A program made the translations under genes and the position numbers. Source: Gemmatimonas aurantiaca T-27 (GTDB lineage Bacteria; Gemmatimonadota; Gemmatimonadetes; Gemmatimonadales; Gemmatimonadaceae). Taken from it: 64,000 bases of DNA. The notes under the pieces were generated by a model that was given only the letters and a program-made list of their open reading frames with translations, was not told the origin of the DNA and did not search any database. Numbering within the stretch: the first letter of the stretch is position 1; each line of letters begins with the position of its first letter. Positions 34,392-47,956 of this stretch are shown here, piece after piece. Where the stretch lies: the NCBI RefSeq assembly GCF_000010305.1, contig NC_012489.1, positions 3,665,646 through 3,729,645 of the forward strand, read 5' to 3'.

Positions 34392-35897
34392 CTACGCCAA
34401 TCTCCCCGGAAGCGTAAGCTCGAATACACTGCCCGAGTCATCGCTGCGCACGAGCTGCAACGAACCACCATGTGCCTGCGCAATCCACGCCGCGATCGGC
34501 AGGCCCAGACCGGCGCCGGATGCGTCGGCAAGCCCCGAACGATCGGTGGTGTGCTGCACCCGGTAGAACCGCTCGAAGATGCGCGGCTGATGTTCAGCCG
34601 GAATGCCGACACCAGTGTCAGACACTCGCACCACCGCGCCTTCATGCGGACGTGGCTGGGCTTCCACACGCACACGACCACCCGCTGGTGTGTACTTGAT
34701 GGCATTGTCGAGCAGGTTCATGACCACGCGTCGCAGCATGGCGTCATCACCCGTATACGGCACCTCGCTCATGGGGGAGAACTCCAGCGTAAGCCCTTTG
34801 GAGCGGGCAATGCCGCCGATCGCATCGACACAGTCGCCGACCAGTTCCTCGAGGAACAAGGGCACGGGGGCGATGGCCTGCTCCGCTCCATCGCGACGGG
34901 CAAGCAGGAACAGGTCACCCACAATGGATGCCAACCGGCGTGCCTCGCCGTGAATGATGCGCAGCGCCGAACGGTACTGATCAGCCGAACGATCGCTGCT
35001 CAGTGCCAGTTCACTTTCGCCGATCACAATGGCCACCGGCGTACGCAACTCGTGTGACGCATCGGCCGTGAAGCGACGACGTTGCTCGAAGGCGTCCTCC
35101 ACCCGATCGAGCAGGGCGTTGAAGGTGCGCGAAAGACGAGAAAGCTCGTCCTCCGTGGACGGCACCGGCAATCGTTCGTGCAGATTGCTGGCCGTGATCT
35201 GCTCGGCTTGCGCGCGCATGGCATCCACCGGCCGCAGGCTCGCCGCCGCCAGCCCCAGTCCACCGGCCATGGCCAGCAGCAAGGCAATCGGTACTCCGAT
35301 CCACATGGTTTCGCGCACACGGGCAAACAGCACGTCGCGTGCGGCCAGCGATTGACTCACCGCCACCACATACAACCCCCGACGTGTGGACACGGGTAGA
35401 GACACCACCCGTTCACGATGTGGATCGAGTGTCACGAGATCGGTGTCCATCAGCGCCAGCGCACGCACCGCCGATGTGCTGGCGATCTGCCATCCGGCCG
35501 CACCGCCGAAGTACCGCGTGGCGCTCGACGTGGTGTCCACCGCCAGCAGATGCAACACCGGTCCGTCGGCATTGGAGGTCCGCGCCTGAAAGATCGCCAC
35601 GCCGATGTCTCGAAACCGATGATTCTCCAGTGTGCGATCTGCCGCCCACCGCGGCGCCAGGGAATCCTGCGCAAACGCCGGCGGCACACCGGCCAATGCC
35701 AACTGCAGCGACGCAGCAACCGCATCCGCCGTGTCGGTGAGATACGCATCACTGTCGGCACGGGTGACCCGCTTGAGCACCGCGTAGGTGGCACTGCCCA
35801 TGATGAGCAGCAGGACACCGAGTGCGGCAGTGTACCACAGCGTGAGCCGCGTGCGGATGGACCAGCCGCGCGACGCCGGCATCTCAGTCGGTGACAT
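34392..35897 (-). CDS. Sensor histidine kinase (HAMP, HisKA, HATPase), CusS/QseC-like
   Basis: The protein of about 501 residues has a first membrane helix (LWYTAALGVLLLIMGSATY), a periplasmic sensor loop of about 140 residues, a second helix (MWIGVPIALLLAMAGGLGL), a HAMP linker (SLRPVDAMRAQAEQI), and HisKA with FTADASHELRTPVAIV. The ATPase domain shows NLLDNAIKYTP, DTGVGIP and GAGLGLPIA. The start is 35897 (14-bp overlap with the regulator gene) or 35882. It is the second gene of the two-component operon and faces the mprF island, which hints at envelope stress as signal; that link is inference. Confidence 0.92.
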   Translation of the reverse strand: MSPTEMPASRGWSIRTRLTLWYTAALGVLLLIMGSATYAVLKRVTRADSDAYLTDTADAVAASLQLALAGVPPAFAQDSLAPRWAADRTLENHRFRDIGVAIFQARTSNADGPVLHLLAVDTTSSATRYFGGAAGWQIASTSAVRALALMDTDLVTLDPHRERVVSLPVSTRRGLYVVAVSQSLAARDVLFARVRETMWIGVPIALLLAMAGGLGLAAASLRPVDAMRAQAEQITASNLHERLPVPSTEDELSRLSRTFNALLDRVEDAFEQRRRFTADASHELRTPVAIVIGESELALSSDRSADQYRSALRIIHGEARRLASIVGDLFLLARRDGAEQAIAPVPLFLEELVGDCVDAIGGIARSKGLTLEFSPMSEVPYTGDDAMLRRVVMNLLDNAIKYTPAGGRVRVEAQPRPHEGAVVRVSDTGVGIPAEHQPRIFERFYRVQHTTDRSGLADASGAGLGLPIAAWIAQAHGGSLQLVRSDDSGSVFELTLPGRLA

Positions 35898-36564
35898 CCG
35901 CCGACAGCAGGTACCCCGCCCCACGTCGTGTGTGCAGCAGTGGTGTATCGCTCACGCTTTCGAGCTTCTTGCGCACCCGTCCGACATAGACCTCGAGAGC
36001 ATTGGATGCGGGATCATGATTCGCGTCCCAGACATGGTCGGTCAGTTCGGCGCGCCCAATCACCCGACCCGCCTGACGGGCGAGGTACGCGAGCAGCGTG
36101 TACTCGCGTGTCGTGAGGTTGAGCGGCACACCGGCACGCGTGGCCTGCTGCGCGCGGGTATCCACGACCAGATCGCCCACCACGATGCGTTCGTCCTGCA
36201 GCACTGGCCCTCGCCGCATGATGGCTCGCAGACGGGCCAGCAACTCGTCCAGCTCGAACGGCTTCACGAGATAGTCGTCGGCCCCGGCGTCCAGTCCCGC
36301 CACGCGATCAGTGAGTGCATCACGCGCGGTCAACATCAGGATAGGTGTGCGCTTGCCGCGCTTGCGCAATTCGGCGCACACCTCGAGCCCCGACCGACGC
36401 GGCATGGTCACATCGAGAATGATGGCGTCGTAGTCGTTGACCGCCGCCTCGATGATGGCCGCCTCGCCATCGGCGACGACGTCCACGGCAAATGCACGCT
36501 CGCGCAGAGCCCGGGCGAGCAGATCGTGGAGTCGGGTATCGTCTTCCGCAAGCAGGATGCGCAT
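35884..36564 (-). CDS. OmpR-family response regulator
   Basis: The 226-residue protein has acidic pocket residues in MRILLAEDDTRL, the phosphoacceptor Asp in AIILDVTMPRRSG, the Lys in DDYLVKPFELDEL, and a winged-helix effector domain ending LEVYVGRVRKKLESVSDTPLLHTRRGAGYLL. It is first in the operon with the histidine kinase, whose start overlaps its end. A palindrome CCTG-N5-CAGG lies 17 bp upstream of its start in the region shared with the small cationic-protein gene. Confidence 0.93.
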   Translation of the reverse strand: MRILLAEDDTRLHDLLARALRERAFAVDVVADGEAAIIEAAVNDYDAIILDVTMPRRSGLEVCAELRKRGKRTPILMLTARDALTDRVAGLDAGADDYLVKPFELDELLARLRAIMRRGPVLQDERIVVGDLVVDTRAQQATRAGVPLNLTTREYTLLAYLARQAGRVIGRAELTDHVWDANHDPASNALEVYVGRVRKKLESVSDTPLLHTRRGAGYLLSADVTD

Positions 36565-37016: not shown

Positions 37017-39725
37017 CTACTTGTGCACGATGCCACCGACACCGCCGGCGATCAGAGTCGCAACGTTCGCCAGCACACGTGGCAACGCGATCCCACCGGG
37101 TGACGCCAGATACCGCGGCTCCCACACGGGCGAGAACTTCTCTTTGAACGCACGCAGTCCCTGGAAGTTGTACAGCGACTCACCACGACCGTAGAGAAAC
37201 GTGCCCGCACGCGCCCACAAGGGCGCCAGTTCAGGCCGCGCCAACGCCGGATCCATGAGACCGGCGAGTGGAGTCATGCCCAGATTCGCCGCGCGATAGC
37301 CCTGCGCCTGACCCCAGAGCAACAAATGGACGAAGAGCAGGTCCATCGTACCGCGTGGGGCATCGGCCGTGCGCCGCATCAGATCCGGCGAGACTTCTCC
37401 GCCGCTGGCACCCGCCCAGATATTCGCAAACGCCACAATGCGCGTACTGCTCGGACCATGCTCGCGAATGAGCGCCATGGGAAAGTGAGACAGGTATCGC
37501 TCGTCGAAACGCCCCAGGGAGAAGCCCTTTTCGCGTGCCGTCTTGCCACCCAGCCATTCGTCGGAAATACGGCGCAGTTCCGGCAGCAGCGGAGGCACCT
37601 CCGATGCCGGCACCACCACGAACTCGAGTCCCGCCTTGTCGGCGTCCTTGAGCACGCGGCGCATCCACTTGCGTTCACCACCTTCGAGTGTGAACCCCTC
37701 GAGTGGTACCACGGCCTCTTCACCCAACTTGAGCAGCGTCAGTCCAAGGTCGATGTACAGTGGCAGTCGTTGCGGTGTCACCTGGTAGAACACCGGCCAC
37801 GCACCATGCGCATCGGCCTCCTCACGAAAGCGCCACGCCACATCGGATTGCCGCGTACCCACTCCCACCGGATCACCCATCGCAATCCAACTGCGTCCTG
37901 ACACGCCATACATCACGAACGCTTCGGCATCATCGGCAAACAGCAATGCCTTGTCGCCCAGGAGAGCGAGTGCCGGCGTGCACTCCGGCACCTGGTGGAT
38001 GACCGTATGCGCCTGTGCCAACTCCACGTCCGTGGGCAGGACCGCGTGATGCGAGGCGGGTCGAAAGAGTCGCCACAACCCCACCGTGAGCACCGCGACA
38101 ATGGTGCCGGCACTCGCCCGCAGGAAACGCGGCGCATTGCCTCGCACCGCAAACTCCCACCAGAGGTCATTCGAAAAGTCGACCCGGCGATAGGCGAAGA
38201 ACCCCAGCCAGATGCTCGCCCCTACCACACCGATCACGGCCACCATCCATCCCGGCGTGAGCAGGTTGGTGGTGAGTGCCGTGGGACGATAGAACGCGCG
38301 CCGTGACGCGACGACCGCCAGCAACACAATGCCCAGCAGCGTCGCTTCTTCCCAGTCGAGGCCTTTGAGCAGAGAGGTCGCAATGCCGAGTGTCAGCACC
38401 ACCACGGTGGCGCCCCACGCAGCATCGAGCCGCCGTCGCAGAGCCGCCCCCAACACCATCAACCCCACGCCCGCCAGACTAGCCGTGAAATGGCTGAACT
38501 CGACAAGACCAAGTGGTAGCACCGCCGTCAGGGCACGCACCCGACCATGTGCCGCCGGAGTGGCGCCGGAGAACAGCAGCATCGCGCCGCCCACGAAGGT
38601 GCTGAACCCGATCGCGGTGGGCAGCAATGGCTGCAGCATCACCGCCACACGCGTCGCACCGCCGAGCACTGTGGCGGCCGTGGACGACACCGTGCCCAGA
38701 AACTCCGGCACCCGCGCACGATGCTGCCGGAGTTCCATCGTGGCCAGCGTGATCAGGCCCATCGTGAACGGCACGAAGTAGTACACCACCCGATAGGCCA
38801 CCAGCATGGCCAGCAACTGCGCCGGGGGCGCCACACCACGCAGTGCCACGAGCATCACCGACTCGAACACACCCAGTCCGCCGGGCACGTGGCTCACGAC
38901 GGCCACGAACTGCGCCAGCACGAACACACCAAGAAACGCCAGCAGCGGCAAATCGTGACCGACTGGCAGGAGTGCATACAACACCAGTCCTGCGACCCCC
39001 CAGTCGAGCAGCGCCAACAGCACCTGCGCCACCGCCAGCTTTGGGGCCGGCACGGCAATGCGCCACCCACGCACTTCGATGCTGGTGTTCGCCCGCAGTG
39101 TGGCCCAGCCGATGTAAGCCCCAACCGACGCCAGCAGACACACGCCGAGCACCCGGGCCAGCACCACCGGCACACCCAACACGCCCAGCATGGCGTGACT
39201 TTCCAGCGACAACGCAAACCCACACACCGCCAGCACACCCACAACAAATGTGGCACTCACGAATCCCGCGGCCTGCGCGATCTGCTGCGTGGACAATCCC
39301 CACATGCTCCAGAAACGCACACGAACCGCACCACCCGTCAGCAGCGCAAACCCCAGCGTCTGGCTGAGCGCATAGGCCAACAACGAAGTGAGCGCCGCAC
39401 GTGCGATGCCCAGCGGTGTGCCCACATACCGCAGCGCCAACAGGTCGTATCCACACAACAACAGATAGGACAGCGCCGTAAGCAGTGCTGCCCGCTGCAG
39501 CGCGGCCCCGGGAATCTCCTGCAGCGACGCCCGCAGATGTGCGTACCCAGTGCCCGCGAGCTCGTGATGGACCACGAGCATGGCGCCGGCCAGCAACAGC
39601 AGCATCGCCACTGGAGGCAGCCACGCGCGCCACACCGCCGGCTGCTCTCGAGTCACGCTCGCAGAAGCGCCCGGTGCGGCTGGCGTGGATGCGGGATCGA
39701 TGGAACTCACGGATGGATTGGGCAT
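37017..39725 (-). CDS. mprF: Bifunctional aminoacyl-phosphatidylglycerol synthase/flippase MprF
   Basis: The 902-residue protein has about 13-14 membrane helices in the first 540 residues (flippase part, with GFALLTGGAVRVRFWSMWGLS and VVSHVPGGLGVFESVML). The C-terminal DUF2156 synthase domain shows SGRSWIAMGDPVG, FYQVTPQRLPLYIDLGL, RKWMRRVLKDADKAG and NFQGLRAFKEKFSPVWEPRYLA. MprF moves lysine or alanine from aminoacyl-tRNA to phosphatidylglycerol and flips the product outward, lowering surface negative charge and giving resistance to cationic peptides. The start at 39725 removes an unlikely N-terminal tail. It diverges from the gene whose product ends in an AcvB/VirJ hydrolase domain. Confidence 0.93.
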   Translation of the reverse strand: MPNPSVSSIDPASTPAAPGASASVTREQPAVWRAWLPPVAMLLLLAGAMLVVHHELAGTGYAHLRASLQEIPGAALQRAALLTALSYLLLCGYDLLALRYVGTPLGIARAALTSLLAYALSQTLGFALLTGGAVRVRFWSMWGLSTQQIAQAAGFVSATFVVGVLAVCGFALSLESHAMLGVLGVPVVLARVLGVCLLASVGAYIGWATLRANTSIEVRGWRIAVPAPKLAVAQVLLALLDWGVAGLVLYALLPVGHDLPLLAFLGVFVLAQFVAVVSHVPGGLGVFESVMLVALRGVAPPAQLLAMLVAYRVVYYFVPFTMGLITLATMELRQHRARVPEFLGTVSSTAATVLGGATRVAVMLQPLLPTAIGFSTFVGGAMLLFSGATPAAHGRVRALTAVLPLGLVEFSHFTASLAGVGLMVLGAALRRRLDAAWGATVVVLTLGIATSLLKGLDWEEATLLGIVLLAVVASRRAFYRPTALTTNLLTPGWMVAVIGVVGASIWLGFFAYRRVDFSNDLWWEFAVRGNAPRFLRASAGTIVAVLTVGLWRLFRPASHHAVLPTDVELAQAHTVIHQVPECTPALALLGDKALLFADDAEAFVMYGVSGRSWIAMGDPVGVGTRQSDVAWRFREEADAHGAWPVFYQVTPQRLPLYIDLGLTLLKLGEEAVVPLEGFTLEGGERKWMRRVLKDADKAGLEFVVVPASEVPPLLPELRRISDEWLGGKTAREKGFSLGRFDERYLSHFPMALIREHGPSSTRIVAFANIWAGASGGEVSPDLMRRTADAPRGTMDLLFVHLLLWGQAQGYRAANLGMTPLAGLMDPALARPELAPLWARAGTFLYGRGESLYNFQGLRAFKEKFSPVWEPRYLASPGGIALPRVLANVATLIAGGVGGIVHK

Positions 39726-39817
39726 TGCCACAAAGAGTCGTTGACGATCAGGAATGTACGGGCGAATGCACGACTCTGGCGCATGACCGAGGCCGTCCCT
39801 GCAAACAAGGCGGCGAA

Positions 39818-39868
39818 CCTGACAGCACCATGACACACGCGTGTGTCACGTGTTACCGCCGTGTCAGG
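39818..39868. promoter_or_regulatory. Nested operator-like palindromes between mprF and the fusion gene
   Basis: TGACACACGCGTGTGTCA (39831-39848) is a perfect 18-bp palindrome. It is enclosed by a second inverted repeat, CCTGACA (39818-39824) and TGTCAGG (39862-39868), which repeats the TGACA half-site. The location in the middle of a divergent promoter region fits a binding site for a dimeric or tetrameric regulator acting on both genes. A further inverted repeat AGAGTCGT/ACGACTCT (39734-39741, 39770-39777) lies in the mprF leader. Confidence 0.6.
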
Positions 39869-39938: not shown

Positions 39939-42900
39939 ATGTCGCAGCCCGTCAACCTGCTTCCGGTCTTTCTCGACCCCACCGGTCGTCGGTGGCGACG
40001 CATGCGGTACGCGGGCCTCGCCCTCCTGTTACTCGCCACCGTGGGCCTGTTCTACCTCGCGGTGGGCGTGCTCGTGCCGCCTGCACTCCCGGGATGGACA
40101 GGAGGTGACTCCACCATGCCGCCGACCCATCGTCGTCACCCTTCGTGGTCGACCAGACTGGCCTGGCTTCGGCATGCGGGACGTGCCGCATACTCCGGCA
40201 CGGCGACGCGTCCCTCCCGTGTCCATCATTCACACGATCCGGTGCGCCGGGCGGCACCCATCCGCGCAGGTTTTTATGTGAACTGGGACGACGATGCCTG
40301 GCAGTCGCTCACCCAACATGTGCAGCAACTCGACTGGCTCATCGCCGAGTGGGGATTTCTCCGCGCCGACACAGGCGCGCTCGAAATGCGTCCGGACCCA
40401 CGCGTGCAAACCCTATTGGCACAACAACCCGCGGATCGACGTCCACGGTTGCTCACCATGATCACCAACGTCGACAGTGGAGGCCGTGCGTTTTCCGGAG
40501 CCCGGGTCGCGACACTGGTGGCCTCGCCCCATGCACGTGCGGCATTTGTCCATAGTGTCGCACGCATGGTACAGCAGTACCATCTGGGTGGTGTGGTGAT
40601 CGATTTCGAGATGGTGCCTGCTGACGCCCATCGAGGTGTCACCACATTGCTTCGTGAGTTACGACAGACGCTCGCTCCGGCACACGCATTGGTGGCCGTC
40701 ACCGTGGCAGCCGACGCCGAACCCGCCATGCTGCAGCAGTGGTCCGCCGCCAGCGATATGGTCATCGCCATGCTGTATGACGAACACAGCAGCCGCGATG
40801 AGCCCGGCCCTGTGGCCAGTCAGGCGTGGTTCGAACGCAGTGCACGTCGCATGCTGCAGGTGATCCCGGCCAATCGCCTCATGCTCGCATTCGGTGCATT
40901 TGGCTATGAGTGGAATGATGCGGATGGTGCACCGCAGGCCACCGCCATGACGTACGCCGAGGCCATCGCGGCCGCACGGCAACACCATGTGCTGCCACAG
41001 TGGAATGCCGATCTCATGCAGCCCAGTATCCAGTGGATCGATGCCGATTCCACGGACCATGTGCTCTGGTACCTCGATGCGGTCACCAGTTGGAATGCGC
41101 TGCAATCGGCATCGTCGTTGGGCGTGGCCGGTGAGGCCGTGTGGAGGCTCGGTGCAGAAGACCCCTCGTTGTGGCGGATATTCGGCCGCAATACCAGCCC
41201 CATGGCGTGGCCGGAACTCGGACCGCTTCCGCCGGGATACGGCGTGGAGATTCAGGGCAACGGGGAGTTGTTGCGCGTCACATCGCACCCCTCAGCGGGT
41301 GAACGACAGCTCGTACACGATTCCGTGAGCGGCATGCTCACCAACGAACGATGGCTTTCACTGCCCAGTGCCTGGACCGTGGAGCGCACCGGCGCATCTC
41401 ATCCGCATCGGGTGGCACTGACCTTCGATGATGGACCGGACGACCGGTGGACGCCGATGCTGCTCGATACGCTCCGCGCCAGACACGCACAGGCCACGTT
41501 TTTTGTCATCGGAGAGCAGGTCCAGCAGCACATCGCGCTCACACGTCGCATGGCGGCCGAGGGACACGCGTTGGGCAGTCACACGTTCACACATCCCGAT
41601 CTGTCGCGTGTTTCGCCCTTTGCCACCCGGCTCGAGCTCGACGCCACCGCGCGTCTGCTGGAAGCGGTCGTGGGGCGGCACACCATGCTTTTTCGTCCAC
41701 CGTACTTCGGCGACGCGGAGCCCAGCACGATCGACGAACTTGAACCGGTGGAAGCCGCCACTGCACTGGGCTACCTCACGGCCGGTGTGCACATCGACAG
41801 CGACGACTGGAAGCGCCCCGGCGTGACAGCGATCATTGCCCGCACCCTGCATCAGCGGGAACGCGGCAACATCGTGCTGCTGCACGACGGAGGTGGCGAC
41901 CGGGCGCAAACCGTGGCCGCCGTGGGGCCTCTCATCGACTCGCTGCGCGCACGCGGCGACACCATCGTACCACTCGAAGCACTGGTAGACGCGCCCATGC
42001 AGACGTTCATGCCGCCGCTTTCCCCGGAAAGTGCTCGGCATCGTTGGCTGGCCTTGGGCGGCTACAGCGCGGTCAGTGCCTTGGAATGGCTGATCGTCAC
42101 CACGCTGACCGTGGCCGTGTCGATGGGTGTCGTGCGCATGCTGTTGCTCACCGCACTGGCCATTCGGCAACGCTGGCAGTCGGCACACCATCCATTGCCC
42201 ATCACCTTCGCGCCATCGGTGAGTGTGATCGTCCCGGCCTACCGGGAACAGTCGGTGATTGTCGCCACCGTGCACAGTCTGCTGCAGCAACAGTATGCCG
42301 GCGCACTCGAGATCATCGTGGTGGATGATGGCTCTCCCGATGATACCTATGCCATCGCGCGCAATACCTTTGCGGCCGACAAGCGGGTGATGGTGCTGAC
42401 CAAGCCGAACGGCGGTAAGGCGTCAGCGCTCAACCTCGGCATTGCCCGTGCGCATGGCGAGGTCATCGTGGGGCTCGATGCCGACACGGTCTTTGCCCCC
42501 GACGCCATCGCAGAGCTGGTGCAACCATTGCGTGATCCGCAGGTGGGAGCGGTCGCGGGCAATGCTAAGGTCGGAAATCGGATCAATCTCGTGACCCGTT
42601 GGCAGGCGGTGGAATACATCACCAGCCAGAACCTCGACCGTCGCGCCTTCACCAACCTGAATGCCATCACGGTGGTACCCGGCGCTATCGGTGCCTGGCG
42701 CGCTTCGGCCGTGCGCGAGGCGGGGGGATTCACGCAAGACACGCTGGCCGAAGATCAGGATCTCACGATCACGCTGCGGCGACGCGGCTGGCGCATCGCC
42801 TACGCCGATGCCGCCGTGGCGTACACCGAAGCGCCAGACTCGCTGCGCACACTCGCACGGCAGCGTTTCCGCTGGGCATTCGGCACACTGCAGTGCGCCT

Positions 42901-44066
42901 GGAAACATCGCGACACACTGCTGCGCCCCACCTATGGCTCGCTGGGGCTGATCGCCATGCCCAACACCTGGCTGTTCCAGTTGGCGTTCACCGCACTTTC
43001 ACCGCTGGCCGACCTGCTGTTTGTACTCAGCCTGACCCGCGTGGCAATCGTCTGGCAGCAACATGGTGCCACCTACGCCGGCACCGATGTCAGGCACATC
43101 ATCAGTCTCTATCTGCTCTTCCTGCTCACCGATGTGGGATCGGCCGTCATCGCACTGCTCATGGAACCCCTCGAATCTCATCGCCTCGCCTGGCTCGTGC
43201 CGCTGCAGCGCTTCGCCTATCGCCAGGTCATGTACTGGGTGGTGTTGCGATCTCTGGCTGCCGCAGCACGCGGCCGTGTGGTAGGCTGGGGCAATCTCGA
43301 ACGCAAAGCCACCGTTTCACCACTGTTGCCGGCGATCGTGCTGGTGTGTTGCCTGACCAGCATCGCACCGGTCGTCGGTCGTGCCCAACCCGTCACCACC
43401 TCCGCTGTCACGGCCGTCGCACCTGCGGCGCAGCTCACGCCCGCGCAGTTGCGCCGCTTCCCCCTCACCGAAATGCCGGCGGCCAACGGACGCACACTGG
43501 CGCTCTTCTGGAGTGGTGACGGCGGATGGAAAGAACTGGTGGATGGCGTGTCGCAGGAGCTCGTGCGGCAAGGCGTTGCGGTCGTGGGCATGAATTCGCG
43601 GTCCTGGCTCACATCGGCCACGCGCACGCCCGACTCCCTGAGCCATGACAGCGTGCTGCTGTTGCGGCACTATCTCGCCGCCTGGCAACGCGATCGCATC
43701 CTGCTCATCGGCTATTCACGCGGGGCAGGCTTCTCCGCCCTGCTGGCAGAACAATTGCCACCGGACTTGCGCGCGAAGGTGATCGGTGTGGCTCTCCTGG
43801 GCATGGAGCACACCGCCAGTTTCGAGTTCCATCTCCTCGATCTCGTACGCACCGTGAGTCGACCCACCGACATCCTGGTGAAGCCGTTCATCGAGCGCAT
43901 CACGTGGACGCCCGTGCTGTGCATATACGGCAAGACGGAAGACGACACCGTCTGCCCGGAACTGGATGCCACCCGCGCACACATCCTGCCACGCGACGGT
44001 GACCATCATTTTGACCGCAATTACCCGCAGATCGCACACGACATCCTGACCAGAGTGGCGCACTGA
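39939..44066 (+). CDS. Four-domain membrane protein: GH18-like, NodB deacetylase, GT2 polymer synthase, AcvB/VirJ-type hydrolase
   Basis: This 1375-residue protein has an N-terminal anchor helix (about 24-49). A GH18-like domain follows (about 105-410) with GGVVIDFE, keeping D222 and E224 but not the first two Asp of DxxDxDxE. A CE4/NodB domain (about 485-690) has TFDDGPDD (D497, D498) and SHTFTH (H548, H552). After a helix (708-742) comes a GT2 domain with VDDG (795-798), DAD (847-849), EDQDL (938-942) and QRFRW (975-979), then further helices. A signal-peptide-like segment (1129-1149, VVGRAQP) precedes an AcvB/VirJ-like hydrolase with SGDGGW (1192-1197), GYSRGA (nucleophile S1260), D1335/D1336 and H1356. 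Predicted topology puts all hydrolases in the periplasm and GT2 in the cytoplasm. GAGGTG lies 5 nt upstream of the ATG. Confidence 0.9.
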   Translation: MSQPVNLLPVFLDPTGRRWRRMRYAGLALLLLATVGLFYLAVGVLVPPALPGWTGGDSTMPPTHRRHPSWSTRLAWLRHAGRAAYSGTATRPSRVHHSHDPVRRAAPIRAGFYVNWDDDAWQSLTQHVQQLDWLIAEWGFLRADTGALEMRPDPRVQTLLAQQPADRRPRLLTMITNVDSGGRAFSGARVATLVASPHARAAFVHSVARMVQQYHLGGVVIDFEMVPADAHRGVTTLLRELRQTLAPAHALVAVTVAADAEPAMLQQWSAASDMVIAMLYDEHSSRDEPGPVASQAWFERSARRMLQVIPANRLMLAFGAFGYEWNDADGAPQATAMTYAEAIAAARQHHVLPQWNADLMQPSIQWIDADSTDHVLWYLDAVTSWNALQSASSLGVAGEAVWRLGAEDPSLWRIFGRNTSPMAWPELGPLPPGYGVEIQGNGELLRVTSHPSAGERQLVHDSVSGMLTNERWLSLPSAWTVERTGASHPHRVALTFDDGPDDRWTPMLLDTLRARHAQATFFVIGEQVQQHIALTRRMAAEGHALGSHTFTHPDLSRVSPFATRLELDATARLLEAVVGRHTMLFRPPYFGDAEPSTIDELEPVEAATALGYLTAGVHIDSDDWKRPGVTAIIARTLHQRERGNIVLLHDGGGDRAQTVAAVGPLIDSLRARGDTIVPLEALVDAPMQTFMPPLSPESARHRWLALGGYSAVSALEWLIVTTLTVAVSMGVVRMLLLTALAIRQRWQSAHHPLPITFAPSVSVIVPAYREQSVIVATVHSLLQQQYAGALEIIVVDDGSPDDTYAIARNTFAADKRVMVLTKPNGGKASALNLGIARAHGEVIVGLDADTVFAPDAIAELVQPLRDPQVGAVAGNAKVGNRINLVTRWQAVEYITSQNLDRRAFTNLNAITVVPGAIGAWRASAVREAGGFTQDTLAEDQDLTITLRRRGWRIAYADAAVAYTEAPDSLRTLARQRFRWAFGTLQCAWKHRDTLLRPTYGSLGLIAMPNTWLFQLAFTALSPLADLLFVLSLTRVAIVWQQHGATYAGTDVRHIISLYLLFLLTDVGSAVIALLMEPLESHRLAWLVPLQRFAYRQVMYWVVLRSLAAAARGRVVGWGNLERKATVSPLLPAIVLVCCLTSIAPVVGRAQPVTTSAVTAVAPAAQLTPAQLRRFPLTEMPAANGRTLALFWSGDGGWKELVDGVSQELVRQGVAVVGMNSRSWLTSATRTPDSLSHDSVLLLRHYLAAWQRDRILLIGYSRGAGFSALLAEQLPPDLRAKVIGVALLGMEHTASFEFHLLDLVRTVSRPTDILVKPFIERITWTPVLCIYGKTEDDTVCPELDATRAHILPRDGDHHFDRNYPQIAHDILTRVAH

Positions 44067-44097: not shown

Positions 44098-44589
44098 CTA
44101 CTTCGTCCACATCTCGCAGTTCGTCATGCGACGCGTATCGGCCAGCTCCAGAATCTTCCACGCCCCGTCGGACTTCACGAGCAGGAAGTGATCGATGCCG
44201 CAGTGTGAAAACTTGGGACCGATGAAGAGACCGTAGTCCACCCACACCGACGCCAGGTCGCCATCGATGTGCACACGCTCATTGCGAATACGCTCATCGA
44301 TCTTCTCGGGCCGCGGTGTACCCACCGATTTCACGAAACCGTCGGCCCCCTGCTGCACCGAGAGTGTCGGCGCGCCGTTGCGGGAAGCCGACGTGATCAT
44401 GCGGACGCGGGCATCGAACACCGAACGCAGCATCGTGGAATCACCGGCGCGCATGCCATCGAACAGACGATTCACCACCGCCATCACGGCCTTCTGGTCT
44501 TCGGCGGGGCCAAAGGACTGAGCAGAAGCCGCTGGGGCGCTGGCCGCCATCAGGCCGGCGACAAGGAGTGTACGGAATGCGTGAGTCAT
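44098..44589 (-). CDS. Exported NTF2-like (DUF4440/SnoaL-type) protein
   Basis: A signal peptide (MTHAFRTLLVAGLMAASAPAASA) precedes an NTF2-like cone fold: DQKAVMAVVNRLFDGMRAGDSTMLRSVFDARVRMI ... VHIDGDLASVWVDYGLFIG ... HCGIDHFLLVKSDGAWKILELADTRR. Bacterial DUF4440 proteins bind small molecules or have hydrolase activity, but no catalytic residues stand out. It starts by ATGA overlap with the stop of the upstream methyltransferase gene, so the two are co-translated. Confidence 0.87.
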   Translation of the reverse strand: MTHAFRTLLVAGLMAASAPAASAQSFGPAEDQKAVMAVVNRLFDGMRAGDSTMLRSVFDARVRMITSASRNGAPTLSVQQGADGFVKSVGTPRPEKIDERIRNERVHIDGDLASVWVDYGLFIGPKFSHCGIDHFLLVKSDGAWKILELADTRRMTNCEMWTK

Positions 44590-46220
44590 GACGCCATCGT
44601 GCGATTGGGGAACGGCAGGAGATCCGTCTCCAGCACGCCTTTGGCCACCAGTGACACCATGGTGTGCATGAACTGCAAGGGTGGGAGATCGGGCGGAAGT
44701 GCGCCTTCAGCCTGAAGTTGGTGGAAAATCTCCGCAAACGTGCGTCCGCCGGTACAGGAGGCGTAAAACGCCGCATCGGCGGCATTCGCGGAGATCCGAT
44801 CCGGAAACGGATGCGTGACCGATATCGCGCCTTCGGCCGGCGTCCATGCCTCTTCGGCGCCAGGGGTGGCCGTGTAGGTGAGTGACAGCCGCGCCGTTGC
44901 CGCCAGTCGGGGACGCGCTTCCAACATCGCCGCGAGTGCGCGCTCACCTTCGCCGAGAAAGTCCTGCATGCGCAGCAGCCACAGCACCTCTGCCCATCTC
45001 GTGCCGCCGTCCCGCTCCACAGCAACCGTTCCTCCCACACGCGGTTTGCCATGTCGTCGCATGACGATGGTGCAGAACTGCAACTGTTCGACCTCGAGGT
45101 CCCGGAGGCGCCGCATCTGCGTCACCACACCCGGGATGGCCTCGTCGGTGGCAGCCGCCAGTTCCTTGCCGTAGTGCTGCATGAAGTCCGAGAAGCCGTT
45201 GCTGAGCACCACGAGATCGAACTCGTCGGCCTGCGCGCCCAGGATATCCCGCAAGCGACGAGCAATGGGCTTGTTCTTGCGCGAACTGAAGAGGCAGGTG
45301 CAGTGGAAGATGCCTTCCGGTGCCAGAAAATCGGGCAATCGCGCCATGATCGCCCGAGAGATCTGTTCCCCGTCTTCCCCACCATCGCGGTAGATGAGCG
45401 CGGTCGATGTGGCGGGCACATACGGCGGGTGCGCCGAGATCACGTCGAACTGCTGTCCTTCCACCGGCGCATACAGATCGCCCTGAAGGGCGGTCACATT
45501 CGGTAGAGCGTTCATGCGGGCATTGAACGCCGCGAAATGCGTGGAGCGGGCCGTGATGTCGATGGCCCACGCATGCTCGGCGCCACGGTGCGCCGCATCG
45601 AGCGCAGCGATGCCCGTGCCCGAGCACAGTTCGAGATATCGCTTGCCGCGTGACGGCGGCAGCGTCGACACAAAAACGCGCACCGAGTTGGTGATGGCCG
45701 GATACACCAGGTCGGTTGCCCCGTCTTCCGGCCGCACGCCCTTTTCTCCGAACGTCGGCCGATCGGAGATCAGGTACAGTCCCGACGTGGGGTACAAAAG
45801 CACCGTGCCGACGATCGTGTCGCCGACTGCCTCGACCAACCCAAGGCGGCCGAGCAGTGCCGCGCTCCCGGAACCAAGCAGCGCATCGGCTTCCCCGGCC
45901 GGCATGGCGTGACAATCCAGGAACAGCCAGATCAAGGCATCGAGACCGTGCTCCGGCGTCGCCGTGCCGCGCTTGTGGTTCTGGCTGTGGAAGTCGTACA
46001 GCGACGGACTCTCAGTTCGGGCGCAGATCGTGGGCTCGTCGAACCGATGGGTCGCCAGCAGGGTCCTCAGCGCGGCGTAGTCCTCCTCGGGAGCGTCGAG
46101 ACGGGGAGGGGCGGCCTGTGCCAAGGACCGGGGGGAAGAGCCAGCCGACGGGCCGGTCCGCGTGGAGACCGACGGATGATCACCGGCCACGTCGTTTTCT
46201 GGGAGCATTTCAGATGACAT
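44586..46220 (-). CDS. Two-part class I methyltransferase with HPPY motif, paralogue 1
   Basis: The 544-residue protein has an N-terminal domain of about 150 residues (DYAALRTLLATHRFDEPTICART ...) and a central MTS-type methyltransferase with SAM loop YLELCSGTGIAALDAA and catalytic-site motif ISAHPPYVPAT, which stands in for the N/DPPY of HemK/RsmC-type enzymes. A 200-residue C-terminal region of unknown role follows. The first HPPY residue His in place of Asn or Asp is unusual and is shared with the paralogue. N/DPPY enzymes methylate amide or exocyclic nitrogens, so protein or nucleic acid N-methylation is likely. The start follows from a conserved promoter that ends 7 nt upstream. Confidence 0.82.
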   Translation of the reverse strand: MSSEMLPENDVAGDHPSVSTRTGPSAGSSPRSLAQAAPPRLDAPEEDYAALRTLLATHRFDEPTICARTESPSLYDFHSQNHKRGTATPEHGLDALIWLFLDCHAMPAGEADALLGSGSAALLGRLGLVEAVGDTIVGTVLLYPTSGLYLISDRPTFGEKGVRPEDGATDLVYPAITNSVRVFVSTLPPSRGKRYLELCSGTGIAALDAAHRGAEHAWAIDITARSTHFAAFNARMNALPNVTALQGDLYAPVEGQQFDVISAHPPYVPATSTALIYRDGGEDGEQISRAIMARLPDFLAPEGIFHCTCLFSSRKNKPIARRLRDILGAQADEFDLVVLSNGFSDFMQHYGKELAAATDEAIPGVVTQMRRLRDLEVEQLQFCTIVMRRHGKPRVGGTVAVERDGGTRWAEVLWLLRMQDFLGEGERALAAMLEARPRLAATARLSLTYTATPGAEEAWTPAEGAISVTHPFPDRISANAADAAFYASCTGGRTFAEIFHQLQAEGALPPDLPPLQFMHTMVSLVAKGVLETDLLPFPNRTMAS

Positions 46221-46227
46221 GCGCCAT

Positions 46228-46256
46228 ATCGTATCGTGCGTTGTGCACAACGACAA
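46228..46256 (-). promoter_or_regulatory. Leaderless-type promoter of methyltransferase paralogue 1
   Basis: On the minus strand TTGTCG (46256-46251), a 17-bp spacer and TACGAT (46233-46228) are followed by 7 nt and the ATG. Transcription should start at or next to the start codon. The same arrangement occurs before paralogue 2, which is why it is judged functional. Confidence 0.65.
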
Positions 46257-46315: not shown

Positions 46316-47920
46316 TCACCGCACCGAAGGCACAAAGGGAATCGGCAGCGCATCGGTCTCCAGCACACCGCTGAGTACCAGGGGCAGCATCGTGTGCATG
46401 AACTCATGGGGCGTGAGCGTCGGTGGCATCGTGCCCTCCGCCTGCAGGTCGCGAAGAATGTGTGCGAAGGTGCGATCGCCGGCGCAGGACGAGAGAAATG
46501 CCGCATCGGCGCCGTTGGCCGATATCCGCGCGGGGACCGGCTGCTCCACCGAAAGGAAACCCTCGGCTGCCCGCCACGGATCCTCGGGATTCCCACTGAT
46601 CTGGTAGTTCAGCGAGAACTTCGCGACCGGGGACAGTCGGGGCCGCGACGCCAGCAACACGTCCAGTGCGTTCGTACCATCCGCGAGCAGCTCTTGCATC
46701 GCCAACAGCCAGGCCACCTGTCCCCACGTACCATCCAGATGACGCGTCACGGCCATCGCGGTACCTCTGCGCGGCATGCCGTGGCGACGGATGATGATCG
46801 TGCCGTACTCCATCTGCCGCACTTTGAGCGTCGTGAATCGCCTCATCAGGGCCACCACCCCCGGCTCGGTTTCGACGTCCGCGTTGAGCAACTGCTTCAC
46901 AAAATGACTCTTCACATCCGTGACGCCCCTGCCGAACAGAATCAGATCGAATTCGTCAGCGGCATCACCCAGCATGGCACGCACACGATCCAATGCCGGT
47001 GCCCCTTCACGCGCCGTGATCTGACAGGTGCAGTGAAAGATGCCGTCCAGCGCCAGATATTCGGGCAGCTTGCCGATGATGGCGCGGGTGATCTGTTCTC
47101 CGTCCTCGCCACCATCCCGGTAGATGATTTCGGTGGATGTCGAGGGGATGTACGGCGGATGCGCGACGATGCAGTCGAACTGCTGGCCTTCGAGCGGTGC
47201 GTAGAGGTCACCTTGCAGCGAGGTTACGTGCTCGAGGTCATTGAGACGCGCGTTGAAGGCGGCGAAGTGCGTGCACCGTTCCGTGATGTCCACGGCCCAT
47301 GCATGCGTCGCGCCGGCCTTGGCGGCCATGAGCGTTGCCACGCCCGTGCCGGAGCACAGTTCCAGAACACGCTTCCCGCGGCTGGGAGGCAATGTCGCCA
47401 GAAACACCCGAACAGATTTTGTGTTTGAGGGATACACAAAATCGGAGACAGCTTCGTAGCTGATGCTTCCTGCAGCGGAGAAGACGGGGCGGTCGGACAC
47501 GAGCCACAATGCTTCCGTGGGGTACATGAGCACGGTGCCCATGATCTCGCCTTCATGCAGCGAGGCGAGTCCCAGACGAAGCAGCAAATCGCCACTCCCC
47601 TCACCCAGCAGCCGGTCACATACCCCACGATCCAGGGTGTGGCAGTCGTAGTAAAGATGGATCAGCGCATCGAGCCCCGTCTCCGGCGCCTGGCCATGAC
47701 GCGCATGGGTGCGGGGTGTGAAGTCGTACAGATCCCCCCGCTCCGTGCGCGCACAGACACCCGGCACATCGTACCGGTGCCCGGTCAGCAGCGTGCGCAG
47801 CGCCACAAAATCTGCCGCCGACACGTCGAGGTTCGGACGAGGCAAGGCGAGCGCGGGATCGAGCGCAGAGGACGGTGCAGCCGTCGCCGACTGGGCGGTG
47901 GGTGGCATTGTCAGTGTCAT
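46316..47920 (-). CDS. Two-part class I methyltransferase with HPPY motif, paralogue 2
   Basis: This 534-residue protein is a tandem paralogue of the product of 44586-46220. Shared patches are ADFVALRTLLTGHRYDVPGVCART, VLELCSGTGVATLMAAKAGATHAWAVDITERCTHFAAFNARLN, CIVAHPPYIPSTSTEIIYRDGGEDGEQITRAIIGKLPEYLA, and the C-terminal PARISANGADAAFLSSCAGDRTFAHILRDLQAEG. The catalytic HPPY is kept. The two copies have diverged clearly, so the duplication is old and both are probably active. It is the upstream gene of the pair, but each copy has its own promoter. An in-frame ATG at 47941 is also possible. Confidence 0.83.
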   Translation of the reverse strand: MTLTMPPTAQSATAAPSSALDPALALPRPNLDVSAADFVALRTLLTGHRYDVPGVCARTERGDLYDFTPRTHARHGQAPETGLDALIHLYYDCHTLDRGVCDRLLGEGSGDLLLRLGLASLHEGEIMGTVLMYPTEALWLVSDRPVFSAAGSISYEAVSDFVYPSNTKSVRVFLATLPPSRGKRVLELCSGTGVATLMAAKAGATHAWAVDITERCTHFAAFNARLNDLEHVTSLQGDLYAPLEGQQFDCIVAHPPYIPSTSTEIIYRDGGEDGEQITRAIIGKLPEYLALDGIFHCTCQITAREGAPALDRVRAMLGDAADEFDLILFGRGVTDVKSHFVKQLLNADVETEPGVVALMRRFTTLKVRQMEYGTIIIRRHGMPRRGTAMAVTRHLDGTWGQVAWLLAMQELLADGTNALDVLLASRPRLSPVAKFSLNYQISGNPEDPWRAAEGFLSVEQPVPARISANGADAAFLSSCAGDRTFAHILRDLQAEGTMPPTLTPHEFMHTMLPLVLSGVLETDALPIPFVPSVR

Positions 47921-47927
47921 AGGCCAT

Positions 47928-47956
47928 ATCGTACTCCTCATCGCAGGCACTGACAA
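47928..47956 (-). promoter_or_regulatory. Leaderless-type promoter of methyltransferase paralogue 2
   Basis: On the minus strand TTGTCA (47956-47951), a 17-bp spacer and TACGAT (47933-47928) are followed by ATGGCCT and the ATG. The -35, spacing, -10 and the 7-nt distance equal those of paralogue 1 although the spacers differ in sequence. Confidence 0.7.

Follow-up and report, generated by a model that had tools for sequence, protein, structure and literature searches.

A polysaccharide synthase joined to a VirJ/AcvB-type hydrolase beside mprF in Gemmatimonas aurantiaca T-27

Polysaccharide synthesis and aminoacyl-phospholipid turnover both set surface charge and, to our knowledge, are known only as separate systems. 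On the lipid side, Agrobacterium AcvB is a periplasmic lysyl-phosphatidylglycerol (lysyl-PG) hydrolase that functions together with its MprF, LpiA; Ser336 and Asp271 are required, while Asp340 and Asp370 assist by aiding recognition of the lysyl group (PMC13197417). W378/L379 bring AcvB to the membrane, and LpiA is bound by that same domain; at the Asp370 position, the homologues from alanyl-PG-producing Pseudomonas carry Ser or Thr (PMC13197417). Asp340 is conserved in characterised homologues. On the polysaccharide side, the hydrolase of PgaB is GH153, without a GH18 motif (PMC5933820), and the nearest case found to a single-chain GH18-CE4-GT2 synthase is a set of glycosyltransferase (GT)-deacetylase fusions in divergent pgaB clades (PMC7112194). 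A search of one literature library found no description of GH18-CE4-GT2 single-chain synthases, and paper searches showed none describing a join between such a synthase and VirJ. Here we describe such a join in a 64,000-nucleotide window of the Gemmatimonas aurantiaca T-27 genome (NC_012489.1, positions 3,665,646 to 3,729,645), in which one gene (39939..44066, + strand) encodes a GH18-CE4-GT2 polysaccharide synthase and a VirJ/AcvB-type hydrolase in a single chain of 1375 aa. The product is probably an inner-membrane amino-sugar polymer synthase that carries its own periplasmic aminoacyl-PG hydrolase, and its gene probably arose when two complete genes were joined exactly end to end.

Four domains in one reading frame

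The open reading frame has an ATG start and no internal stop codons, and a Pfam search of its product matched all four domains of the original prediction: GH18 at residues 181-405 (53 bits, cut-off 29.6), CE4/NodB as Polysacc_deac_1 at 488-589 (102 bits), GT2 at 759-982 (131 bits) and VirJ PF06057 at 1186-1373 (140 bits, cut-off 22; model positions 2-187 of 191). A frame with the same four domains is found beside mprF in three further Gemmatimonadota genomes, G073 (one 5.2-Mb contig), G269 and G236, whose fusion proteins are 62-66% identical overall to that of T-27. No stop or frameshift separates GT2 from the hydrolase, and a sequencing artefact, which had been named as a possible source of the fusion, is excluded by its recurrence in four genomes, the absence of a stop and the selection acting on the sequence.

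The C-terminal domain (residues 1184-1375, 43488..44063, +) was assigned to the AcvB/VirJ-type serine hydrolases by Pfam, alignment and model, and a check for a different hydrolase family led back to VirJ PF06057. As predicted, SGDGGW (1192-1197), GYSRGA with S1260, and H1356 are all present. In the alignment, S1260 corresponds to the catalytic Ser336 of AcvB and H1356 to His433 (PMC13197417, PMC13135905), and the equivalent of Asp271 is retained. D1194, S1260 and H1356 are invariant in the four fusions and invariant or near-invariant across 49 homologues, and the hydrophobic pair L1302/V1303 occupies the loop place of W378/L379. The domain matches the AcvB entry 9xhm in sequence with an E of 2e-27, and its AlphaFold2 (AF2) model (predicted local distance difference test, pLDDT, 95) is an alpha/beta hydrolase with Brucella VirJ domain 1 as top Foldseek match (E 7e-10). 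AcvB itself is not among the listed fold matches, which is uninformative, the entry perhaps not being in the structure library.

The part ahead of the hydrolase has the layout of a complete polymer synthase. Its first transmembrane segment (residues 27-45, 40017..40073, +), placed by hydropathy, would anchor the GH18 and CE4 domains outside the inner membrane. The GH18 domain (approximately residues 109-430, 40263..41228, +) is YdhD/SleL-like by Pfam and motif comparison, with the DxE pair D222/E224 in the DFE form of YdhD/SleL-type GH18. The CE4/NodB deacetylase domain (approximately residues 485-690, 41391..42008, +), identified by Pfam and by the motifs TFDDGP, HTFTHP, RPPYF and LLHDGG, has the complete set TFDDGP, HxxxH, RxPY and LxHD (D497-D498, H548/H552, R586-Y589, H649-D650). 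A processive GT2 module with transmembrane channel helices follows (approximately residues 702-1126, 42042..43316, +; Pfam, motifs and model), carrying DDG, DAD, ED and QRFRW, in the general form DDG, DxD, (E)D and QxxRW (D796-D797, D847/D849, E938-D939, Q975-R978-W979), and terminates in LERKATV. All these residues are invariant in the four fusions. The modelled GT2 fold matches that of hyaluronan synthase (383 residues at 3.3 A, Z 31.8), and in an AF2 model of residues 690-1375 the GT and VirJ modules are confident and residues 1116-1163 between them are of low confidence.

The original prediction held that these domains repeat the functions of PgaB plus PgaC, the proteins of poly-N-acetylglucosamine (PNAG) synthesis. 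The functional logic holds but the membership does not, given a GH18 in place of GH153 and the equivalog scores: 176.9 bits for PgaC/IcaA TIGR03937 (cut-off 422.3), 133 for NodC (cut-off 550) and 136 for NodB (cut-off 240), none of which is reached. These scores rule out a PNAG synthase by family membership; moreover, no match to the PgaA porin reaches its cut-off anywhere in the T-27 genome, and hence the name PNAG should not be used for the polymer.

The seam between synthase and hydrolase

Stand-alone synthases of this type mostly stop a few residues past '...WGxLERKATV'. In the fusions, the LERKATV end passes straight into a hydrophobic stretch that closes with x-A/Q (the slash marking the putative cleavage site). 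In T-27 this signal-peptide-like segment, expected before the hydrolase and found there by hydropathy and alignment (residues 1127-1150, 43317..43388, +), is hydrophobic over 1129-1147, the second strongest such segment of the whole protein, and ends in GRA/QP. The corresponding ends are LTA/QS, LSA/QP and LRA/QQ in the other fusions and LSA/QR, LSA/QT, LAA/QT and GDA/QG in the closest stand-alone VirJ signal peptides. The seam valine codon is GTT in T-27 and GTC, GTC and GTA in the others, with no conserved start codon there. Because the synthase end meets a VirJ-like x-A/Q segment without a start codon, the fusion appears to be an entire synthase plus an entire VirJ precursor minus its start methionine, in agreement with the proposal that an exported gene had been fused in frame as a whole. 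The linker that follows (residues 1151-1183, 43389..43487, +) is just 20-41% identical among the fusions and evolves almost neutrally. The VirJ part is under purifying selection, with a ratio of nonsynonymous to synonymous substitution rates (dN/dS) of approximately 0.2-0.5 in most pairs; in several pairs the linker has a ratio close to 1. These ratios are rough because synonymous sites are near saturation.

Gene neighbourhood, distribution and origin

The divergent neighbour of the fusion gene is a full-length mprF (37017..39836, -), encoding an aminoacyl-PG synthase/flippase with an NF033480 match (866 bits, cut-off 600), whose true start is probably a Met approximately 111 nt inside this frame; as the original prediction had it, mprF lies directly beside the fusion, and it does so in all four genomes. 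Adjoining mprF is an OmpR-type response regulator (35884..36564, -; Pfam), kept in all four fused loci (79-84% identical in G073 and G269, where it likewise adjoins mprF; in G236 a fragment at the end of a contig is 78% identical), followed by a sensor histidine kinase (34392..35924, -; Pfam), kept in the three with enough sequence, T-27 included, and 71-72% identical in the two others whose fetched stretch reaches that far. An alignment of the region between mprF and the fusion gene was uninformative as to a common promoter or operator. The T-27 genome, a single 4,636,964-base contig, encodes one VirJ. It has two PF09924 proteins: the MprF next to the fusion is the stronger match by a wide margin, and the second, weaker LPG_synthase_C protein lies at G000:C1:4629328-4630104 (-; 89.5 bits, frame of 502 aa). 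On the other side of the fusion, 44586-46256 and 46316-47956 (-) encode tandem, similar-looking proteins of approximately 550 aa with a central PF05175 small-methyltransferase domain and long flanks.

The VirJ search covered 395 Gemmatimonadota genomes, of which 63 had matches whose neighbourhoods were then read, and gave no VirJ-synthase fusion outside the four genomes. VirJ was likewise never joined to a GT in the 42 VirJ-bearing genomes among 398 Pseudomonadota searched, and a synthase scan across several phyla, with 80 loci listed, held VirJ in the same chain only in the G236-equivalent record; absence elsewhere is thus a statement about the sampled genomes and the 80 loci listed. Long VirJ frames in G174 and G244 and in the Pseudomonadota genomes G531, G760, G707, G633 and G823 were rejected as fusions, being open frames that overlap the neighbouring mprF. 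The claim of a new arrangement therefore stands for the VirJ-to-synthase join and not for the first three domains, which are a known, widespread synthase: GH18-CE4-GT2 matches occur in 78 of 179 Gemmatimonadaceae genomes, and single-chain forms also appear in Acidobacteriota, Pseudomonadota, cyanobacteria and others among the listed loci. T-27 itself has a second GH18-CE4-GT2 synthase without VirJ (G000:C1:3899350-3901254; L140:7300-10716, -; 1138 aa, approximately 45-51% identical), in a clade that takes in most other Gemmatimonas copies. In a Pyrinomonadaceae locus (L203), MprF C-terminal-like sequence (positions 1-435, 33%) lies at a contig end near a GH18-CE4-GT2 synthase, a possible linkage of synthase and LPG synthase outside Gemmatimonadota.

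The same genes also meet as separate frames. At 57 VirJ loci, mprF lies within 5 kb in 33, a synthase within 6 kb in 13 and both in 12, and nine loci in as many genomes of other Gemmatimonadaceae have the order synthase>mprF>virJ; these operons of separate genes therefore support a functional link. In one further genome (G283, L054:642-5357), VirJ stands directly upstream, on the same strand, of a distantly related GH18-CE4-GT2 synthase (45% identical in the GT2 part), and the 15 kb fetched contain no mprF, which hints at synthase-VirJ linkage without mprF.

The synthase halves of the fusions form a single clade (Shimodaira-Hasegawa-like approximate likelihood ratio test, SH-aLRT, 99), and a second clade (98/86) unites their VirJ halves and a single stand-alone copy, L046. 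Sister to the fused VirJ clade are L059, L069 and L074, where virJ and mprF are divergent neighbours and no synthase gene lies between them. From this arrangement of the sister genes we infer that a synthase gene entered an existing mprF-virJ locus and was then joined to virJ. The stand-alone member of the clade (L046:9122-10039; G366:C112) has the regulator and kinase genes of the T-27 locus as neighbours, but neither mprF nor the synthase, and so reads as a former fusion locus whose middle part was later lost.

A proposed mechanism and its alternatives

In the mechanism we favour, GT2 would build a polymer of an amino sugar, N-acetylglucosamine being the likeliest, and pass it through its own channel in the membrane; CE4 and GH18, which the first helix would keep on the outer side, would partly deacetylate and trim the chain to give a cationic polymer. 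The former VirJ signal peptide would then take the protein chain back into the membrane and so deliver the hydrolase to the periplasm, to strip the amino acid, more probably alanyl than lysyl, from aminoacyl-PG made and flipped by MprF. A single translation event would thereby couple cationic polymer output with cationic lipid turnover at a locus bearing a two-component system, and the hydrolase could afterwards be freed by signal peptidase or left tethered.

Several observations weigh against this reading. The join has apparently been undone at L046. Of the three acidic residues by which AcvB recognises lysine, the fused domain lacks two, with Gly1264 in place of Asp340 and Ser1294 in place of Asp370. 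The identity of the polymer is a guess, given that the PgaC and NodC models stay below cut-off. Nor is the coupling universal, since most members of this synthase family stand alone and distant from mprF, and many VirJ genes at the 57 loci have no mprF nearby.

The lost residues leave the predicted lysyl- or alanyl-PG substrate only partly intact: lysyl-PG is doubtful, and alanyl-PG is a sensible first guess, though a weak one, with another ester also plausible. The guess follows from Ser at the Asp370 position, the state seen in alanyl-PG producers, and from an MprF that is slightly nearer to the Pseudomonas alanyl-PG synthase (4v34, 276.5 bits) than to LpiA (6lv0, 272), a lysyl-PG synthase (4v36) scoring 202; deciding the specificity from MprF similarity gives a weak lean and no more. 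The hydrolase might instead act on something other than aminoacyl-PG, such as a different lipid or ester groups (O-acyl or aminoacyl) carried by the polymer, as its fusion to a polymer synthase, the loss of Asp340 and Asp370 and the mprF-free neighbourhood of L054 would suggest. We regard this as unlikely, because mprF adjoins all four fusions and lies near 33 of 57 VirJ loci, Asp271, Ser336 and His433 are retained, mprF-linked VirJ of other Gemmatimonadaceae likewise have Gly at Asp340, and Ser or Thr at Asp370 is found in homologues of alanyl-PG-producing Pseudomonas (PMC13197417). Similarly improbable is a chance merger without functional coupling, in which loss of a stop codon joined two neighbours of one locus: the narrow clade and the apparent reversal in L046 (G366) fit it, but the fusion has been kept in four genomes at the divergence given above with both halves under selection, and the same three genes form operons in a different order in other lineages.

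A combined enzyme, as in the earlier description, is only a possibility, because the kept signal-peptidase-type site may split the parts after synthesis. We give a little less than even weight to a polyprotein, a mechanistic variant of the favoured reading in which signal peptidase I would cut at the internal x-A/Q, so that synthase and hydrolase are made in equimolar amounts and work apart, the former with one extra membrane helix and the latter as a soluble periplasmic VirJ. Each of the four fusions keeps the x-A-Q, as do the stand-alone VirJ precursors closest to them, even though the linker is so variable, and the synthase tail ahead of the segment is basic, as expected for a cytosolic end. 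Against this, A-Q arises easily in Ala-rich sequence, and the hydrophobicity of three of the segments is somewhat above the mean of stand-alone signal peptides (1.7-2.0 versus 1.21 +/- 0.84), yet within their range. More tentative is the fuller proposal that the synthase C-terminus serves to export the hydrolase, with the cut releasing it, and that cationic exopolysaccharide and lipid are tuned in fixed proportion from one locus linked to a two-component system. Additional synthesis of the hydrolase from an internal start codon seems very improbable: there are in-frame GTG/TTG codons in the seam (residues 1130, 1134, 1136) and an ATG at 1179, but the seam valine is never a start codon, no ATG precedes the signal segment and no ribosome-binding site is evident before the T-27 candidates.

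Taken with the operons of these genes that were assembled separately, the fusion is good genomic evidence that two pathways cooperate, joining polysaccharide synthesis with aminoacyl-phospholipid turnover, and its presence in a cultured strain makes the case concrete and testable. A signal peptide inside the chain, behind a multi-pass membrane enzyme and possibly cleaved, would be unusual in itself. Compared with PgaB plus PgaC or IcaA plus IcaB, the synthase part shares a processive GT2, a CE4 deacetylase and a glycoside hydrolase (the last in PgaB only), but besides the differences in family and the missing porin match its hydrolase domain is N-terminal, whereas the GH153 of PgaB is C-terminal. 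Residues 1-1126 resemble the single-chain synthases of Gemmatimonadaceae, Acidobacteriota, Rhodanobacter, Accumulibacter and Calothrix over their full length (approximately 40-60% identical), although those mostly end soon after ...ERKATV, without a VirJ domain. The hydrolase shares with the periplasmic aminoacyl-PG hydrolases AcvB/VirJ of Agrobacterium and PA0919 of Pseudomonas the PF06057 family, the Ser/His pair, the Asp271 equivalent, the hydrophobic loop residues, linkage to mprF/lpiA and a signal peptide (here signal-peptide-like, by sequence). In contrast to them, it forms the C-terminus of a 1375-aa membrane synthase and lacks the N-terminal domain of AcvB, from which it also differs at Asp340 and Asp370. 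As in the Agrobacterium lpiA-acvB operon and the mprF-virJ pairs of Pseudomonadota, genes for an aminoacyl-PG synthase and a hydrolase stand side by side, but in T-27 mprF is transcribed divergently and the hydrolase shares its chain with a polysaccharide synthase.

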